From: an uncultured Opitutia bacterium
Lineage (GTDB): Bacteria; Verrucomicrobiota; Verrucomicrobiia; Opitutales; UBA953
Assembly: GCA_945957395.1 (NCBI GenBank)
Contig: CAMFKE010000002.1
Span: 310,001 to 374,000 of the forward strand
Length of the DNA stretch: 64,000 nucleotides
Direction of reading: 5' to 3'
Of the stretch, positions 4,575-64,000 are shown piece after piece (position 1 is the stretch's first letter; each line of letters opens with the position of its first letter). The notes below the pieces were generated by a model. It was not told the origin of the DNA, did not search any database, and worked only from the letters and a program-made list of their open reading frames with translations. The translations under genes were made by a program, and so were the position numbers.

Positions 4575-5204
4575 ATGTCGCTCAAGAAGTCCCCCCTCCG
4601 CGCCGGCTTTACGCTGATCGAACTGCTCACCGTCATCGCCATCATCGGCATCCTGGCCGGCATGGTCATCGGCACCGTGCAGATCGTGAAGAAGCAGGCG
4701 CGCATCACCGCCTCCAAGTCCATGTTCACCCAGTGGTGCTCCGCCGTGGAACAGTACAAGACCACCTACGGCCAGTACCCCTACCTCAACGGCAGGTATG
4801 AAACCTCCAAGGACACCGTCGTCTCCCTGGACAGCACCGTGACCACCGGCGAGTTCATCAAGTGCCTGACCGGCCGACAGCCCATGTTCGACGGCGGAGC
4901 GGCCCTTAGCGCCGACGACCGCAAGAAGTACAACCGCCAGGGCACCTCCTTCTGCGACTTCGACCCCAAGGCGTTCCAGGTCAACGACTCCGGCGCCTAC
5001 ACCAAGAAACTCGTCGACGGGTTTGGAAACACGAAGCTGCGCCTCGTCATGGACACCGACGGCAACGGCATGGTGAAACCCGAGGACAGGATGCCCGACG
5101 ACGCCGGAGCCGACTCCAACGGGTACATCGGAGCCAAGGTGATCATCTACACGCTCAAGTCCGACAACGTCTCGGAATACGAGGACATCCTGAGCTGGAA
5201 GTAA
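4575..5204 (+). CDS. Type II secretion/type IV pilin-like protein (GspG-like major pseudopilin)
   Basis: A prepilin-like protein of 209 residues. After a short positive leader, the prepilin-peptidase site and hydrophobic helix read 'AGFTLIELLTVIAIIGILAG' (residues 10-29), with the canonical Glu at mature position 5. The C-terminal half contains a 'DTDGNGMV' acidic loop typical of the calcium-binding region of GspG-type pseudopilins. It is first of four consecutive prepilin-like genes on the plus strand (94 bp before the next), suggesting co-expression as one pseudopilus. No secretion ATPase, secretin or prepilin peptidase is in the window. Confidence 0.85.
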   Translation: MSLKKSPLRAGFTLIELLTVIAIIGILAGMVIGTVQIVKKQARITASKSMFTQWCSAVEQYKTTYGQYPYLNGRYETSKDTVVSLDSTVTTGEFIKCLTGRQPMFDGGAALSADDRKKYNRQGTSFCDFDPKAFQVNDSGAYTKKLVDGFGNTKLRLVMDTDGNGMVKPEDRMPDDAGADSNGYIGAKVIIYTLKSDNVSEYEDILSWK

Positions 5205-5298
5205 CGGCCGCTCCGGCCCGTGTCTAACGGGGTGCGCCCCGGCGAGCATTTCGCCGCCGCCCCCTGCGCCTCGAATCTCGAATCTCGTCTCCCCGCCC

Positions 5299-6087
5299 AT
5301 GCTTCCCCGCCGAATCCGCCGCGCGTTCACCCTCGTCGAACTGCTTGCGGTCATCGCCGTCATCGCCCTGCTCGCCACGCTCCTCGCCGGCCTTCGCCCG
5401 GGCTCGCCCAAGGGCCTCGACGGCGCCACGCAGCAGGCGCAGTCGATGTTCCAGCTCGCGCGCTCCCAAGCCATGCTGGCGAACAACCTCGACCCGGACT
5501 ACCCGGACGACCGCCTCTACACGCCCCGCGCCCGCGTCATCATCCTCAACGATCAGACCGACACCGAAAACCACCTGAGCCGCATGGGCGTGATCCTCGG
5601 CGGACAGCTCGTGGACCCCAAAACCGGCCGCAACCGCTACACCGGCGGCGAGATCAAGGGAGAAAAGGACCTCCAGGAAAGCGACCTCGTGTGGTACGCC
5701 GTGGGCGAAGGCGCCACCCTCCCCAAAGGGTTCTACTATGTGGACAACGCCAACAAGGCGGTGACCAAGGCCATCCTCAAGAGCGACGTGGAGAACAAAA
5801 CCTTCCCCTCCACCCCCACCATGCGCGTGGAATTCCCCCGTCGCAAAGCCCAGAGAACAGGATCCGGAAAGACGTGGTATTTCTACGAGTTCCTCTCCAG
5901 CGGAGCCGCCAACATGAGCGACAAGGCCGATGTGACCGGCGCCCGATTCATCGTCATGGAGGGCGAAATCAACCCCGCCACCAAGGAACTCACCGCCATC
6001 GCCGGCAAAGAGAACATCGTGGGCGGTCTGCTCATCCTGCGCCCCGGCACCACCGTGAGCATCAACAAGAAGTACGAAGCGAAGTAA
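5299..6087 (+). CDS. Prepilin-like protein, probable Verru_Chthon cassette protein D (GspH-like)
   Basis: The product has 262 residues. The leader 'MLPRRIRR' is followed by 'AFTLVELLAVIAVIALLATL', a class III (prepilin peptidase) signal with Glu at mature position 5. Length, position and N-terminus fit protein D of the four-gene verrucomicrobial cassette (A-D); that label is from family memory, not a search. The remainder is soluble and beta-rich, as for minor pseudopilins. It lies 24 bp before the next prepilin gene, so they are likely co-transcribed. Confidence 0.75.
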   Translation: MLPRRIRRAFTLVELLAVIAVIALLATLLAGLRPGSPKGLDGATQQAQSMFQLARSQAMLANNLDPDYPDDRLYTPRARVIILNDQTDTENHLSRMGVILGGQLVDPKTGRNRYTGGEIKGEKDLQESDLVWYAVGEGATLPKGFYYVDNANKAVTKAILKSDVENKTFPSTPTMRVEFPRRKAQRTGSGKTWYFYEFLSSGAANMSDKADVTGARFIVMEGEINPATKELTAIAGKENIVGGLLILRPGTTVSINKKYEAK

Positions 6088-6111
6088 CCCCGCCCACCTC
6101 GGACTGCGCCC

Positions 6112-6822
6112 ATGCCCCACCCCCTTCTCCCCAAAAAACCTCGCCGCCGCGCCTTCAGCCTCGTCGAGGTCGTGCTCGCCCTCGGCGTCGTCGCCGCCGC
6201 CGTGCTCGTGCTCATCGGCATCCTCGGCACCACCTTCACTTCCGCGCGAGAAGTCGCCATGCAGCACCGCGCCGTCAACGCGGTGAGCCTGCTCTCCGGC
6301 GCCCTCCAGAACGCCTCAGGCATCAAGGGCGCCCCGACCACCTCCGACGGCACGCCCGCCTTCGAGCGCGTCTACAGGCTCCTGCAACCCAAGAGCGACG
6401 GCACCCAGTTCATCGATTTCTTCGTGTATCAGAAATCGCAGGAGAAGACGCCCTCCGTCCCCGTCGTCTACTACGCCGCCTCCGGCAACTTCACCATGGC
6501 CGAATCCATGGGCGCCGAACACGAGGGCATCGACCGTTCCACCGTTTTCCGCCTGCGCGTGCGCGTCTCCGCCATGCTCAAGGACAAGCTCTACGAACTC
6601 GACCCGGCCACCTTCGAGCCCAAAGCCGGCGTGAAATGGTCCGTGGGCACCCCGCTGCCCTCCTCCGTCGACAACTACGCGCTCGCCTACCTGCCCCTGT
6701 CCGTCGAGCTCTACCCGCACGACTTCACCGAGGCCACCAACCCCGGCACCGCCGCGAATGTCGACCCGGCGACCGCCAAGGTCCTCCCGCTGATCACCGC
6801 GCCGGTCGTCCTCAACCGCTGA
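6112..6822 (+). CDS. Prepilin-like protein, probable Verru_Chthon cassette protein B (GspI-like)
   Basis: The product has 236 residues. A basic leader ('PKKPRRR') precedes 'AFSLVEVVLALGVVAAAVLV', giving cleavage before A and Glu at mature position 5. The 'SLVEV' version of the signal and the size recall GspI/PilV-type minor pseudopilins and protein B of the verrucomicrobial cassette. The next gene starts 10 bp downstream, so translation is probably coupled. Assembly into a pseudopilus tip is inferred from the family. Confidence 0.75.
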   Translation: MPHPLLPKKPRRRAFSLVEVVLALGVVAAAVLVLIGILGTTFTSAREVAMQHRAVNAVSLLSGALQNASGIKGAPTTSDGTPAFERVYRLLQPKSDGTQFIDFFVYQKSQEKTPSVPVVYYAASGNFTMAESMGAEHEGIDRSTVFRLRVRVSAMLKDKLYELDPATFEPKAGVKWSVGTPLPSSVDNYALAYLPLSVELYPHDFTEATNPGTAANVDPATAKVLPLITAPVVLNR

Positions 6823-6832
6823 GCCCCACCCG

Positions 6833-7921
6833 ATGAAACGCCCCCTGCGCCGAAGCCTCCGCGGCTTCACCCTCGTCGAGATCCTCGTCGCCACCGCCGT
6901 CTCGCTCATCCTCGTGCTCGGCGTCGTGCAGATCGCCGTCTACGCGCTCAAGGCCTACGACAGCGCGATGAGCCTGGTGAGCACCACCGCCGTCTCCCGC
7001 CAGTGCCTCGATACGCTCGAGAGCGACCTGCAGACCGCCCTGATTCGCAACGACGGCTCGACCTGGATGGAGTGCGTCTCCGACCAGGCCACCGACCCCT
7101 CCGCCTCCGGCAACTTCGACCGCGGCGCGTGCAAGTCGCTCCTGCTGTTCAGCACGCCCCCCGACCGCGACCTGTTCAAGCCCGGCAGGACCGGCGCCTC
7201 GCGCGAGGCGTACAAGGGCGAGCTGTGCGCGGTGCGCTACCGCCTCAGCAACGCCAACCCGATGCCGGAGCCCCTTCGCTCCTCCGCCGACACCGACCGC
7301 GCTTTCGCGCTCTCGCGCACCATCATCGACCCGGAAAAGACCTTCGCGGACATCCTCACGCGCACCACCGACACCTCGGCCAAGTCGCTTTACGAGGTCT
7401 GGAACGCCTACAGCTACAACAACGGCGCCTCCACCCGCCCCCTGCGCGACAACGCCCCCGCCGACATCTTCGGACTCAATGTCGTGGCCCTCACCCCGGT
7501 GTTCATCTTCAAGCGCACCGACACCACGGCGACCCCCGCCAAGTCCTGGTTCTTCTACGCCTACCCGAAGTCCCCGGTGAACGACGCCTTCTACAAGGAC
7601 TCCAAAAACTTCTCCGAAGGCTTCGGCTCGGAAACGGACACCGGATTCAACCCTCTCGCCTTCGACTCCCTGCAGGTCACCGCCGGCAAGTACGCCGTCG
7701 ACCAGGCCACCACGCCCGCCAAGGACAAGCAGTGGAAGGACGGCACGCTCGCCGCCGTGCTCATTTCCATCACCGTGGTGGACGACGCCGGCGCCGACAA
7801 GATCCGCGCCGCGCAGACGCGAACCTCCGCAGGAAAACTCTCCGACCAGGAGTGGGAGAGTCTCCTTCGCGAACACGGCCGCTCGTATGTGCGCCGCATC
7901 AACCTCTCCGGCGCCGAGTAA
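6833..7921 (+). CDS. Prepilin-like protein, probable Verru_Chthon cassette protein C (GspJ-like)
   Basis: The product has 362 residues and is the largest of the local four. The leader 'MKRPLRRSLR' and the signal 'GFTLVEILVATAVSLILVLG' show prepilin-peptidase processing and Glu at mature position 5. The long C-terminal region with several inserted loops is the usual build of GspJ/PilW-type subunits and of cassette protein C. It ends the operon, and a good terminator follows 20 bp after the stop. The matching large protein A is not here but at 60.1-63.8 kb on the other strand. Confidence 0.77.
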   Translation: MKRPLRRSLRGFTLVEILVATAVSLILVLGVVQIAVYALKAYDSAMSLVSTTAVSRQCLDTLESDLQTALIRNDGSTWMECVSDQATDPSASGNFDRGACKSLLLFSTPPDRDLFKPGRTGASREAYKGELCAVRYRLSNANPMPEPLRSSADTDRAFALSRTIIDPEKTFADILTRTTDTSAKSLYEVWNAYSYNNGASTRPLRDNAPADIFGLNVVALTPVFIFKRTDTTATPAKSWFFYAYPKSPVNDAFYKDSKNFSEGFGSETDTGFNPLAFDSLQVTAGKYAVDQATTPAKDKQWKDGTLAAVLISITVVDDAGADKIRAAQTRTSAGKLSDQEWESLLREHGRSYVRRINLSGAE

Positions 7922-59293: not shown

Positions 59294-60052
59294 TCAGGAC
59301 CTGCGCGCGCCCTTGGCGGCGGAGGCCTTCGCGGCTTTTTCGTCCGGGGCCTCGACGAGTTCCTTCACCTCGGGATCCTCGACGGTGCGAACCATAAGTC
59401 GGCCCGAGGCGTCGTTGAAAAGGAAGGCCATCGTGCGCAGCTTGGCCCCGGACGGCCACACCGTGCTGTAAACCACCCTGGGCCCGTCCGCCGAGGGGGC
59501 CGTGATTCTCACCGCCATGTCGCCCAGGTCCGATGCGGCCTTGGGCGGCGGACAAAGCTGAGCCCCCTTGGCCGGAAGCGAGCACTCGGCGCCCCCCAGA
59601 TTCATCGAAAGCGGTTCGCCCGTGAGGTTCACCGCCAGCACCCGCCCGTACGGAAACCGAGTGGCGTTGTCCGGAATGGCCTGGGCCGTCACGCCCCCGC
59701 TGGCGTCGCCGAACAGCAGCACGAGCTGGCGCGGCGCCCCGGGGGCGGCGCTGAAGGCGGTCACGCGCTCATACCCGGCTTCCCCCGGTCGCACGGAGGC
59801 GGCCGATTTGGTGAAAAGCCCGACGGGCCCGTCCACCGCCACGCGCACCGGCGCGCCGATAAAGGTGGAGGGGGCCTGGACGCCCACATACTTGCCGGAC
59901 GCCGTGCGGGCCCAGAGCTCCTTGGCGGGCGCCAGGCTGATGAAGCGGAAGGAGACGCTGCCGCCGCCCGTCTGCGGCGAGGAGGCGGAGGCGGCCCAGG
60001 CCAGGGCGGGCAGGAAAAGCGAGGCGGCGAAAACGGGGCGAAGAATACGCAT
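59294..60052 (-). CDS. Exported protein of unknown function next to cassette protein A
   Basis: The product has 252 residues with a signal peptide ('AASLFLPALAWAAS', cleavage near residue 22). The rest looks all-beta, possibly a tandem of two related sandwiches ('AKELWARTASGKYVGV' and 'YGRVLAVNLTGEPLSMNL'). It ends in an Ala/Lys-rich tail. It is not recognised. It begins 56 bp after the stop of the giant prepilin-like gene on the same strand, so they are probably co-transcribed and it may be a periplasmic partner of the pseudopilus. Confidence 0.75.
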   Translation of the reverse strand: MRILRPVFAASLFLPALAWAASASSPQTGGGSVSFRFISLAPAKELWARTASGKYVGVQAPSTFIGAPVRVAVDGPVGLFTKSAASVRPGEAGYERVTAFSAAPGAPRQLVLLFGDASGGVTAQAIPDNATRFPYGRVLAVNLTGEPLSMNLGGAECSLPAKGAQLCPPPKAASDLGDMAVRITAPSADGPRVVYSTVWPSGAKLRTMAFLFNDASGRLMVRTVEDPEVKELVEAPDEKAAKASAAKGARRS

Positions 60053-60108: not shown

Positions 60109-63100
60109 TCAGAGCGTGGAGTCGTCGAGCACCCGCACGGAGGTGACGGTGAAGCGGCGTCCGAACGCGCGGTTAGACGCCTTCTTCAACGCGGCGTATT
60201 CGGACTCGGGGGCCTCGGAGCCGTCCACATAGTCGTAGGAGCGGCGCAGGGTGAGCTCGAGATGGCAGCGGGCGTCGCCGGAGGAGCCGCCCACGCGCAC
60301 CGTGAAGGTGTCGCCGCGCGGGGTGAGCGCGTTGGCCAGAGGGGCGAGCAGGTCGGCCTGGGAGAGCCAGCCGGGGAGGCCCACGCCCGAGGCGTCCACG
60401 CTCTGCGCGTAGCGGGTGTTGGGCAGGCCGGAGACGCCCATGTCGCGCCCGGTCACCCTGCGGTGATCGTTGAGGCCGGCGGCGTCGATGGCCGCCTGCG
60501 CGGCGCCCTTGGCGCCCAGCTCGCCGGGCTCCAGACGGCGGTTGAGAAACTCGCCGAGGGAAAGGAACGGCCCGCGCTTCTTCACCTCGTTCACCATCGC
60601 CTGCGCCAGACGGTCGAGCTGCGCCTCGGTGAGCGCACGACCGGCGTTGGCGCGCCCGGCCGCATCGGAGACCGGATTGGCGGCGGGGTCGCCGCTGAGC
60701 ACCGTCGCGGCCGGTACGACCACGGGCGCGGTGGGCGACACGGCCGCCTTGGCCAGAGCGCCGGAATCGGCGAGCTTGACGCTTTGCGTGACGGCTTCCG
60801 GCGTGGGCCGGTCGGTGTGCAGCGAGGCGAGGAAGGCGCGCCAGGCGCGCGCGGAGGTGGAGTTGATGTTGAAACCGCCCTCCACCAGGAAGTGCCCGGC
60901 GGCCCGCCGGAAGCCGTCCGGAGTGGCCGCACCCGAGTCATCGGTGAGCCCGACGGGCTTGGCGCCCAACGGGGCCAGTCGCCGGTTCGGCAAAGGCTTC
61001 ACCCCGGAGAAGAAATCCGAGACCTGAGTGGAGGCGTTGCCCGTCATGGACGGGAAAAGCTTGGCGGCGACGCCCTTGTCCCAGTCGCCGAGCGAGCTGA
61101 CAAACCAAGTGTCGGCGAGGGCGGAGTTCATGATCCAGGACATGTCACAGGGACGCGCGGGGGCGCCCGCGCGCACGGAACAGGCGACCGGGGCGCTTGC
61201 GCCCGCGGCCTCCTGCGCCACCCAGGGGGTGGCCAGGGAATTGCCGAAGGCGTCATGCACGGCGGCGATGCCGGTGGACTGCTCGTAGGGCGGCGTGCTG
61301 CCGCCGGAAGATGCCGGATAGGCGCGAACGCCGCCGCCCAGGCGGGCATGGCGCAGGTCGAGCAAGCCGACGGGGGGGTGAAGCGGGGCGCGGTGGTAGA
61401 CGAAGCGGCCGACGCCCGTGCCGACGGAGTGGCCGGTGCCCATGTAGCCGAGCGCGCCGGGCACGCCGGGCAGGCGCGGATTCTCGCCGGCGGAAAGGAA
61501 GCGGGTGTTCTCGGTGTCCTCGTAACCCACGCCCCAGGCGACGAACTCGAACGGCGACACGGCCTGCCCGACGGCGTCGGTCTGGTTAAGGGAAAGCGGG
61601 CGGTGCAGGAACGGGGTCTCTCCGGCCCAGGCGTAGGCGGTGTCGGCGGCGGCGCCGGACTTGGCCTCGGCCTTCAGGCGCATCTCGAACACCATGGCGG
61701 GCTTGAGTTGACCGACCTGACCGGTCAGCGCCGACACATTGTTGTAAAGCTGATCCTCGGCGCCGCCGAGCATGCGCACGAGGTTGCCGGTGGTGCCGGA
61801 GGCCCCGTAGGAGGTGAGGTAGGTGGAGGCGTCGTTGGTAAACGCGCCCCGGTAGACGCCGAAGTGGCAGTAGCCGGAACTCCACGCCGTGAAATCGAAA
61901 TTCGGTCGCACCTTGATGGAAATCGCGTCCGAGGCGCCCAGGCCGCTCATGACCGACCAGTTGACCGCCTTCGCGCCGCCCGAAGGCGCGTAGCCGGGCT
62001 CCAGTTTCAGCGTCGTCTCATTGAGCGAGTTGAGCGTGGTGGCGGCCCTGAAGGAGAAGGTGCGCACCTCGCCGGGCGCGAGATAGGCGGAGGCGCCCGA
62101 ACCGTACAGGGGGATGAAGCCGCCCATGCGCTGCGACGGATTGTTGAAGTCGAATCCGAACTTGGCGGTCTTCGACGGGGTGCCGGTGGTGCGCAGCTCG
62201 GCCACCAGCGGGAAGGCCACGCAGCGCAGGATGTAGTTGTCCGTGTTCCCCTGAGAAAGGCGCAGCGCCACATTGTAGGGGTTCCACAACTGGGCCACGA
62301 CATTCACATGCGGGTTCAGGTTGTACTGCCCCGACCCGGGCGAGGTCTCGGTCGCCGCGAAGCGCACCTCCAGCCGATACTTGGCCAGCACCGGCTGGCG
62401 CCAGTAGCCGTGATACAGCCGGTCGGGCCCCTTCGCCGCCACGGCATCCAGCATCTGCGCCTTTTGGTCGGCGAACGAGATCAACGACACGAACGGCCCG
62501 ACCGAGGAGTCGTACCCGAGCAGGTCGCCCGCGTTCGTTTTGGCGACCGTCGCCATGCGCGACCACTCGCGCACATCCGACCACAGCGGCCAGGTCGACT
62601 TCGTCGCCGCATCCGCCGCGGCCGGCGACGCCAAGGCGGCCGTGACGCTCGTGCGCCACCAGGCGTTGCGGCCCTGGGAGGACTCGGCGGAGTCGAAGCC
62701 CACATAGCCGGACATGCCCCCGAGATTGGGGGCGCCGCCGCCGCCATTGAGCGAATCGAAGTCGGCGTCCCCCAAGAGCGCCATCAGGCTCACATCGCGC
62801 TTGAGCCCGCCGTTGGCGGTATCGGTCAGCAACGACACGGACTCCGGCGTGAAGTCGTGCCGCAGCGCCCGCAGGGGCGTCGTCTGACCGGATTCCGACG
62901 GGAACCAGTCGGGGGAATCAGGATCGTTGACCAAGCCGGCCCACCCGGCGGAGCGCGAGTGAAGCCCGACCGCCTGCGAGGATTTCCAGCGACCCAGCGA
63001 GGTGCCGTCTTCGGGGTAGCCCGGGAAAAAGGCGCGCGCCGCGCCGGCGCGAAACACGCCGCGCGCCACGATATCCAATCCGTCCCCGGCGCTGTCACGC

Positions 63101-63804
63101 AGGTCCACCCGCGCCTTCTGATTCTCATCCATCGCCACCCAGGCGAACTCGCCCAAGGCGGCGCCGTCGGGGGCCGGGATGGGCTCGGGGCGCGCGTAAA
63201 GGTGCAGCGCGTCGTCGCAGGCCAGAGCAGCGGCGCCCGCATAGGCAGTCTTGCCGCCGTTGAGCAACAGCCATTCGCGGGAGATATCCGGCGACGAGGC
63301 ACCGTCCATCATCCAAGCCTGACCCTGCGCTCCGGTGCGGGAGGTCAGCGGCACGCCCGACTCGAAGCCCGAGGCCAGCCAGCCGCAAAAGGCGCCCTCA
63401 TGATCCTGCGCATACCCGGAGATCGGCGACACGGCGGCGAGATTGTTGGACGAAAGGCCCTTCCACACGCCGACATACCGGGGGCGCCCCACCCCGGCGG
63501 CCCGCCTGTACGCCTCGGCCGAGGACGCATTGGTCCCCAGAATGGCCGCATTGGCGCTCACTCGCCGATCCGGCCCCAGGAGTCGCTGAATCTCACCCAA
63601 CGCCACGCGCGCCCCAGCTTGCGCATTCAACCTCGCCTTTAGCAAACCCACCGAGGCGCGCGACGCGCGCAACTCCACCGACATCAACGCCGCCGCTCCG
63701 AGGCACAGCAGCAGCAACATGGACATGACGGTCAGTGAGAGGACCAGGCTGAACCCGCGACGGCGGGTGACGGCGACGGGGAAGGCGGGGCGCTTGGGGG
63801 TCAT
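60109..63804 (-). CDS. Giant prepilin-like protein, probable Verru_Chthon cassette protein A
   Basis: The product is 1231 residues from ATG 63804. The leader 'PKRPAFPVAVTRRR' is followed by a prepilin-type helix 'GFSLVLSLTVMSMLLLLCLG', in which mature position 5 is Leu instead of Glu. Next comes 'RLNAQAGARVALGEIQRLLG', typical of cassette protein A. The remaining 1100 residues form a large exported region with no recognised domain. GspK, the tip pseudopilin of type II secretion, also lacks Glu5 and is enlarged, so this may be the tip of the pseudopilus formed by the 4.6-7.9 kb genes. ATG 63804 is preferred over upstream GTG and TTG codons. Confidence 0.83.
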   Translation of the reverse strand: MTPKRPAFPVAVTRRRGFSLVLSLTVMSMLLLLCLGAAALMSVELRASRASVGLLKARLNAQAGARVALGEIQRLLGPDRRVSANAAILGTNASSAEAYRRAAGVGRPRYVGVWKGLSSNNLAAVSPISGYAQDHEGAFCGWLASGFESGVPLTSRTGAQGQAWMMDGASSPDISREWLLLNGGKTAYAGAAALACDDALHLYARPEPIPAPDGAALGEFAWVAMDENQKARVDLRDSAGDGLDIVARGVFRAGAARAFFPGYPEDGTSLGRWKSSQAVGLHSRSAGWAGLVNDPDSPDWFPSESGQTTPLRALRHDFTPESVSLLTDTANGGLKRDVSLMALLGDADFDSLNGGGGAPNLGGMSGYVGFDSAESSQGRNAWWRTSVTAALASPAAADAATKSTWPLWSDVREWSRMATVAKTNAGDLLGYDSSVGPFVSLISFADQKAQMLDAVAAKGPDRLYHGYWRQPVLAKYRLEVRFAATETSPGSGQYNLNPHVNVVAQLWNPYNVALRLSQGNTDNYILRCVAFPLVAELRTTGTPSKTAKFGFDFNNPSQRMGGFIPLYGSGASAYLAPGEVRTFSFRAATTLNSLNETTLKLEPGYAPSGGAKAVNWSVMSGLGASDAISIKVRPNFDFTAWSSGYCHFGVYRGAFTNDASTYLTSYGASGTTGNLVRMLGGAEDQLYNNVSALTGQVGQLKPAMVFEMRLKAEAKSGAAADTAYAWAGETPFLHRPLSLNQTDAVGQAVSPFEFVAWGVGYEDTENTRFLSAGENPRLPGVPGALGYMGTGHSVGTGVGRFVYHRAPLHPPVGLLDLRHARLGGGVRAYPASSGGSTPPYEQSTGIAAVHDAFGNSLATPWVAQEAAGASAPVACSVRAGAPARPCDMSWIMNSALADTWFVSSLGDWDKGVAAKLFPSMTGNASTQVSDFFSGVKPLPNRRLAPLGAKPVGLTDDSGAATPDGFRRAAGHFLVEGGFNINSTSARAWRAFLASLHTDRPTPEAVTQSVKLADSGALAKAAVSPTAPVVVPAATVLSGDPAANPVSDAAGRANAGRALTEAQLDRLAQAMVNEVKKRGPFLSLGEFLNRRLEPGELGAKGAAQAAIDAAGLNDHRRVTGRDMGVSGLPNTRYAQSVDASGVGLPGWLSQADLLAPLANALTPRGDTFTVRVGGSSGDARCHLELTLRRSYDYVDGSEAPESEYAALKKASNRAFGRRFTVTSVRVLDDSTL

Positions 63805-64000
63805 AAGCACCGGCGACCAAAGCCTCCGGTAGAAAATCAGCAAATGGTTTCTTTAAAAAACCAGCGCCCTTGCAAAACCGGTCATTTGAAAAACCATACA
63901 GACACCCGCCTAACGGCAAAAAATCCTCTCAGACACAAGGCATAGTCAAAACCAGCCTGCTTCTCTTTTCCCCCGGAAAACTTTGAGTCAAAACAGGAAC
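63805..64000 (-). promoter_or_regulatory. Leader/promoter region of the giant prepilin-like gene
   Basis: This is an AT-richer stretch than its surroundings, reaching the window edge. Two TTGACT hexamers on the minus strand (near 63989 and 63948) could be -35 elements, but no convincing -10 at the right distance was found. A GGAGG lies 17 nt before the chosen ATG, further than usual. No other gene is visible. Confidence 0.35.

Follow-up and report, generated by a model that had tools for sequence, protein, structure and literature searches.

The 64,000 bp window analysed here (positions 310,001 to 374,000 of contig CAMFKE010000002.1, C2:310001-374000 in the 2.79 Mb genome of an uncultured Opitutia bacterium, Verrucomicrobiota) carries the gene for a prepilin-like protein of 1231 amino acids (aa), hereafter protein A. 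Protein A is probably a giant GspK-like capping minor pilin, an enlarged form of the small subunit found at the tip of type II secretion and type IV pilus filaments, and one of several such caps that a shared pilus would use in trans. This assignment is based on the leader peptide, the residue at mature position 5, the gene context and the co-occurrence with pseudopilin genes, and on a predicted fold; we infer the tip location and the function. A preliminary description, made from the letters of the window alone, had suggested a GspK-like pseudopilus tip, and this idea is now better supported than sequence alone could tell. The GspK likeness stood (four GspK/XcpX structures as top fold matches, no glutamate at mature position 5 (Glu5), an N-terminal profile match). 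By score, protein A is neither a curated GspK nor a Verru_Chthon cassette protein A, and it is not the K subunit of the type II secretion system (T2SS) operons of its own genome.

The open reading frame (ORF) starts with an ATG, and an in-frame TTG is located 5′ of it at 63843. The protein begins with a class III (prepilin) leader, MTPKRPAFPVAVTRRRG/FSLVLSLTVMSMLLLLCLGAAAL, with phenylalanine at +1 (RRRG/FSLVLSL; the slash marks the predicted cleavage site). At the junction TRRRG/FSLVLSLTVMSMLLLLCLG, mature position 5 is leucine. The ORF translation confirms the earlier report of a prepilin-type N-terminus with Leu5 on a protein of this size, and Glu5 was likewise verified in all four pseudopilins of the window (GFTLIE, AFTLVE, AFSLVE, GFTLVE). 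Protein A thus shows the GspK trait of a class III leader without Glu5.

Family A was found in 49 of 57 related genomes with a single-sequence search and in 51 with a profile, two of the latter matches being weak. Residue 5 is not Glu in any of the 20 proteins of the first alignment (19 read by script and 1 by eye), and in 78 further homologues from contig loci it is V (26), I (19), A (18), S (8), T (4) or L (3), never E or D. The spread of the family and the constancy of this trait show that the observation in the window is not a matter of chance. A homologue with Glu5 had been named in advance as evidence against the tip proposal; among about 100 homologues with a readable residue 5, neither Glu nor Asp occurs there (one protein has Pro), and the loss is universal in this set. 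Family members range from ~950 to 2060 aa and were found in Akkermansiaceae, Verrucomicrobiaceae, Coraliomargarita, Cerasicoccus and other taxa. The A N-terminus of the genomes of genus g40 is nearly letter-identical to that of a record titled Akkermansia muciniphila (L165); hence, gut Akkermansia also appears to have protein A. Divergent pairs of A genes, arranged as the window copy and its neighbour, were seen in L165 and in two loci of genus g40 (L250, L251).

By sequence, protein A resembles GspK only in its first ~65 residues. The hhalign comparison of the family A profile (67 sequences) with the GspK profile (12 sequences) gave an E-value of 5.9e-7 and a probability of 92% over 65 N-terminal columns; E. 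coli K-12 GspK was taken in place of the GspK copies on E. coli plasmids. The NCBIfam GspK family matched 12 of 20 members of family A (best E 4.5e-6), inside the first ~120 residues in all seven members viewed in detail. The best relative reached 26.4 bits, also at the N-terminus only. A search of PDB sequences with the family A profile returned only a chance match to ribosomal protein S4.

The structure of residues 32–1231 was predicted with AlphaFold2 with a predicted template modelling score (pTM) of 0.85 and a mean predicted local distance difference test score (pLDDT) of 71; in the presumed GspK-like core, most blocks reached 80–96. The first four matches of the model in VIA-align were all GspK/XcpX structures, namely 6utu_C, 5vtm_X, 3ci0_K and 9a1f_T (the last an integrative model), with Z-scores of 10.4, 9.9, 9.9 and 9.7, a root-mean-square deviation of 2.9–3.6 and 214–237 aligned residues of 259–295. 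The fifth match had a Z-score of 4.2. Other pilin folds are missing from this list, and their absence was not counted as evidence against them. The first match in Foldseek was also 3ci0_K, with a weak E-value of 0.054. The predicted model contains the alpha1 helix, the alpha-beta core and the helical domain of GspK. As the aligned range spans both ends of the model (model residues 13–1200), protein A seems to be a GspK fold into which ~700 residues are inserted. The fold similarity by itself says nothing about function.

The insert is the variable part of the protein. The most frequent residue has a share of 0.29 in the insert vs. 0.46 in the flanks. Compared with its two neighbouring paralogues, the window copy shows 20–23% identity in the insert vs. 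56–64% over residues 17–130. Weak immunoglobulin (Ig)-like matches of the model lie inside the insert, at model residues 437–740. Some homologues occupy open frames of ~1940–2060 aa (G013:C7, G005:C5, G021:C22 and G052:C2), so the insert can exceed twice its length in the window copy.

It is very improbable that the GspK likeness of the model is convergent or over-predicted and that protein A is not homologous to GspK. Such an explanation would agree with the lack of a significant profile match outside the N-terminus, with a Foldseek E-value of only 0.054 and with the DnaE origin of the long frames matched by PF03934. However, the four best VIA-align matches, GspK/XcpX without exception, have Z-scores near 10 over more than 200 residues vs. 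4.2 for the next one, and the N-terminal profile match is significant. The PF03934 (T2SSK) matches in frames of 1000–1500 aa across the phylum had been tried as evidence for protein A. None of the 14 fetched frames (L225-L238) encodes it, and the matches were therefore dropped. In our own reading of the sequences, nearly all look like DnaE-type polymerases that contain an HhH stretch; one frame is unrelated. Further PF03934 frames of 700–900 aa start, in the same reading, like Tex. The Pfam T2SSK model apparently cross-reacts with HhH segments of DnaE-type polymerases, a trap when GspK genes are counted in this phylum.

The four pseudopilins of the window, judged by their NCBIfam scores as Verru_Chthon D, D′, B and C, look like a G-H-I-J set without K; all four score under the curated cut-offs of their families. 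The J-like gene is single-copy in the genome and in most relatives. It was found in 45 of the 57 relatives, all of which also have protein A; four genomes have A without J, none has J without A and eight have neither. With one genome taken per family (f2-f21), the association of A with the J-like gene was significant (Fisher p 0.0007), whereas that of A with canonical GspK was not (p 0.54). The control domain T2SSF (GspF) was detected in 56 of the 57 genomes. In most genomes where the cluster was read, it comprises three to five Glu5 pilins, and neither K nor motor genes were seen beside it.

In 79 fetched loci, A stands alone or with paralogues, together with a secreted partner, and is not adjacent to B, C and D. 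The question raised earlier, whether A normally sits beside these genes, is thus answered in the negative for this lineage, and in the positive for the true Verru_Chthon cassettes, which have the order A-B-C-D or B-C-A-D in genome G120, and for one family (G043), in which the A frame and the end of the J-like gene overlap, so that A takes the K position. In G043 alone does A have the placement typical of GspK, behind gspI-gspJ; in the window, 52 kb separate them.

This scattered arrangement would suit a protein that never enters a filament, that is, a membrane-anchored surface or periplasmic protein with a borrowed pilin N-terminus. The absence of Glu5, the distance of most A genes from pilin genes and the restriction of GspK sequence similarity to the first ~65 residues all agree with it. 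We nevertheless regard such a role as quite improbable: the C-terminal part completes the GspK fold in the model, across families, the occurrence of protein A, but not that of canonical GspK, follows the J-like gene, and A occupies the K position in G043 and stands with B, C and D in the G120 cassettes.

Several results weigh against the proposed GspK-like tip cap. The window protein itself has no match to the NCBIfam GspK family and no Pfam match, and does not reach the curated GspK cut-offs (130 bits for NF037980, 24.2 bits for PF03934). The C-terminal part aligned to the GspK profile with a non-significant probability of 4%, and a profile from which the insert had been spliced out matched no better. 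The mean pLDDT counts on the same side, as do the borders of the insert, which are estimates set by the conserved strand GEFAWVAMDENQKARVDL before it and FNINSTS behind it. The A genes are mostly apart from the pseudopilin genes. In the co-occurrence analysis, both queries came from one genome, so the sensitivity of both searches falls together with distance. The profile search also gave weak A matches in G045 and G051, which may be their GspK; if these are counted, the family table becomes 10/4/0/6 (both, A only, J only, neither) and the association weakens to p ~0.01, calculated by hand.

The genome contains two T2SS-like operons (C10:78383-84936, L101; C4:297-302 kb, L102), each with GspF, small pseudopilins and a Glu5-less GspK of canonical size. 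Since both carry their own GspK, protein A was ruled out as their K subunit. A PilB-PilT-PilB-PilC locus at C9:4231-10213 was identified from its translations and from the scan of a matching locus. More can be learnt from the sister genus g3, whose five genomes (G002, G006, G010, G014 and G018; 95–98% complete) have two T2SSF domains each, corresponding to one PilC/GspF gene, which adjoins PilB and PilT in both loci read (G018, G006). The GspK-family search of these genomes revealed no canonical GspK; its matches were protein A (E 8.6e-8 to 1.8e-7), in some genomes a second A-like protein of ~950–980 aa (L245, where a Glu5 pilin follows it, and L246), and frames that are presumably Tex-like. 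The A-family proteins are therefore the only GspK candidates in g3.

These data also bear on the idea that protein A serves as the K-type pseudopilin in a T2SS-like piston of its own, with the partner as secreted cargo or cargo adaptor, and not the tip of an extended pilus. The frequency of the downstream partner-size ORF, the T2SS-like GHIJ order of the clusters and the two T2SS operons in the genome would agree with it. We consider it unlikely, as the T2SS operons have their own GspK, the single GspF/PilC gene of g3 lies, where read, in a PilB-PilT-PilC locus with a retraction ATPase, and genes for E, F or a secretin were not observed next to the GHIJ sets.

The preliminary description had placed the gene 52 kb from its likely partners and on the other strand. 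The distance to the pseudopilins and the strand are correct; the picture of a lone gene needs correcting, since it belongs to a cluster of paralogues and has a partner gene of its own. The cluster comprises three A genes (C2:370112-382962), two of which lie past the end of the window, directly after the window copy and on the opposite strand (C2:374171-377872 and C2:378898-382962). A fourth copy is located at C4:65597-68965. Each of the three C2 copies is followed 3′, on the same strand, by a gene for a secreted protein of ~250–270 aa. In a positional scan, a downstream same-strand ORF of this size was present for 87 of 111 A genes, usually at a distance of no more than 50 bp; a few of the 87 are not partner-family-like, so about three quarters is a fair figure. 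If protein A works with the pseudopilin set, it would do so in trans.

Scans of the partner protein gave no Pfam and no NCBIfam family match. Its predicted structure (pLDDT 84) consists of two beta-sandwich domains, with the extracellular domain of PepT2 as the best match (Z 14.5 and 14.0). The closest solved fold of the window partner and its homologues is the extracellular two-domain module of mammalian PepT1/PepT2. Behind the partner of the third A gene, a 751-aa protein with an N-terminal hydrophobic segment is encoded (L038:15856-18111, on C2); its stretch GGVCGTMATMCVRSYNMANIPA resembles, by eye, a transglutaminase-like domain.

Protein A was compared with several known systems. With GspK/XcpX/PulK of the T2SS (NF037980, PF03934; 3ci0_K, 5vtm_X, 6utu_C), it shares the class III leader, the lack of Glu5, similarity in the N-terminal helix, a predicted fold over nearly the whole GspK chain and, in one family, the K position behind a J-like gene. 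It differs in scoring under the curated cut-offs, in its ~700-residue insert and length (roughly 950–2050 aa vs. ~330), in being multi-copy and usually apart from the pseudopilin set, and in having its own secreted partner. Verru_Chthon cassette protein A (TIGR02600) is similar in size, also lacks Glu5 and matches at the N-terminus (hhalign E 6e-8) and weakly at the C-terminus, around LTTKSNTFTV/LSARSDTFTI; its partners B, C and D correspond to the window pseudopilins. However, the window protein scored 10.8 bits against TIGR02600 (residues 17–74), under the cut-off of 332.3, and true Verru_Chthon A sits with B, C and D, unlike the distant window copy. The family A profile reaches Verru_Chthon cassette A proteins at E 1e-5 to 8e-5, and those of G120 are, as judged from these matches, distant homologues of the window family. 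No paper naming Verru_Chthon or TIGR02600 was found in the literature library searched.

Two further systems are likened to protein A from their published descriptions. For the Kil Tad-pilus of Myxococcus xanthus, several paralogous tip complexes (KilL/M/N) that vary in their distal domains have been proposed to serve a single pilus (PMC12075869). It resembles family A in this use of paralogous tips and differs in its Tad (TadE/F/G) minor pilins, which belong to another pilin branch, and in its role in predation. PilB and PilC of Streptococcus sanguinis are modular tip minor pilins with functional domains grafted on a pilin (PMC10191384; PMC8179133). These domains are joined by short linkers, whereas the insert of protein A appears, in the model, to sit inside the GspK-like fold.

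The following mechanism is proposed for the GspK-like tip cap. Without Glu5, protein A would not dock beneath a higher subunit and so would occupy the top of the filament. It may prime assembly together with the pseudopilins of I and J type (Verru_Chthon B and C); in this genome, these would come from the separate single-copy D-D′-B-C cluster (4575-7921). The filament would be driven by the PilB/PilT/PilC-type machine or by one of the two T2SS machines. Outside, the tip would display the variable insert, perhaps with the co-encoded secreted two-Ig protein attached to it. The A relatives are multi-copy across Verrucomicrobiota; hence, a common filament may be fitted with different, exchangeable giant tips in these bacteria, the copies of a genome being alternatives, as proposed for Kil pili (PMC12075869). 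The most likely use would be adhesion to, or capture of, particles and polysaccharides.

If the proposed role is true, a function could be suggested for a large set of "cassette protein A"-like genes of unassigned function, and a Glu5-less capping subunit could be enlarged mid-fold into a display platform. Verrucomicrobiota are particle- and mucus-associated polysaccharide degraders. In Akkermansiaceae, attachment and the uptake of glycans have been linked to the pilus locus MUL2 (PMC13174399). A giant multi-copy family of GspK-like tips would be a candidate for the receptor end of such filaments; that they capture glycans is a guess, made from this locus and from how the group lives. A wider generalisation is offered only tentatively: Verrucomicrobiota, including Akkermansia-type gut genomes, might operate a common pseudopilus, built from a single G-H-I-J set and powered by a PilB/PilT/PilC motor, whose giant GspK tips can be exchanged. 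Each tip would be an interrupted GspK fold with its own variable insert and secreted two-Ig cap, and the tips would select what the cell grips or takes up.

Table 1. Features of the window related to protein A and the pseudopilin set.
Feature	Position	Strand	Basis
Protein A, giant GspK-like prepilin of 1231 aa, first of four genomic copies	60109..63804	-	ORF and homologue searches
Class III signal peptide, residues 1-17 (end TRRRG), predicted cleavage before F18; mature residue 5 = Leu	63754..63804	-	Sequence
N-terminal part of the putative split GspK-like fold, residues ~18-240: alpha1 helix, first strands, GEFAWVAMDENQKARVDL strand	63085..63753	-	GspK N-terminal profile match, fold match; boundary estimated
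Variable insert, residues ~241-959, Ig-like beta-sandwich stretches, proposed display region	60928..63084	-	Lower conservation, weak Ig-like matches; boundary estimated
C-terminal part of the putative split GspK-like fold, residues ~960-1231; motifs FNINSTS, GPFLSLGEFLNR, RGDTFTVR	60112..60927	-	Alignment, predicted fold
Gene 3′ of A for the secreted partner protein of 252 aa; two Ig-like beta-sandwich domains in the predicted model	59294..60052	-	ORF scan and predicted model
Pseudopilin, Glu5, GspG / Verru_Chthon D-like	4575..5204	+	NCBIfam
Pseudopilin, Glu5, Verru_Chthon D (D′) / GspH-like	5299..6087	+	NCBIfam
Pseudopilin, Glu5, Verru_Chthon B / GspI-like (XpsI; TIGR02598 E 4.9e-7)	6112..6822	+	NCBIfam
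Pseudopilin, Glu5, Verru_Chthon C / GspJ-like (TIGR02599 E 1.4e-4)	6833..7921	+	NCBIfam

The genome also encodes other large Glu5-less prepilin-like proteins of 831, 913 and 532 aa (L103:11045-14941 on C6, L104:6176-9697 on C4 and L108:4005-6871 on C4, respectively), which were not picked up by the A-family searches. Two of the three were scanned, with one very weak GspK match and one without a match. All three are located directly behind small pseudopilins with Glu5 or Asp5.

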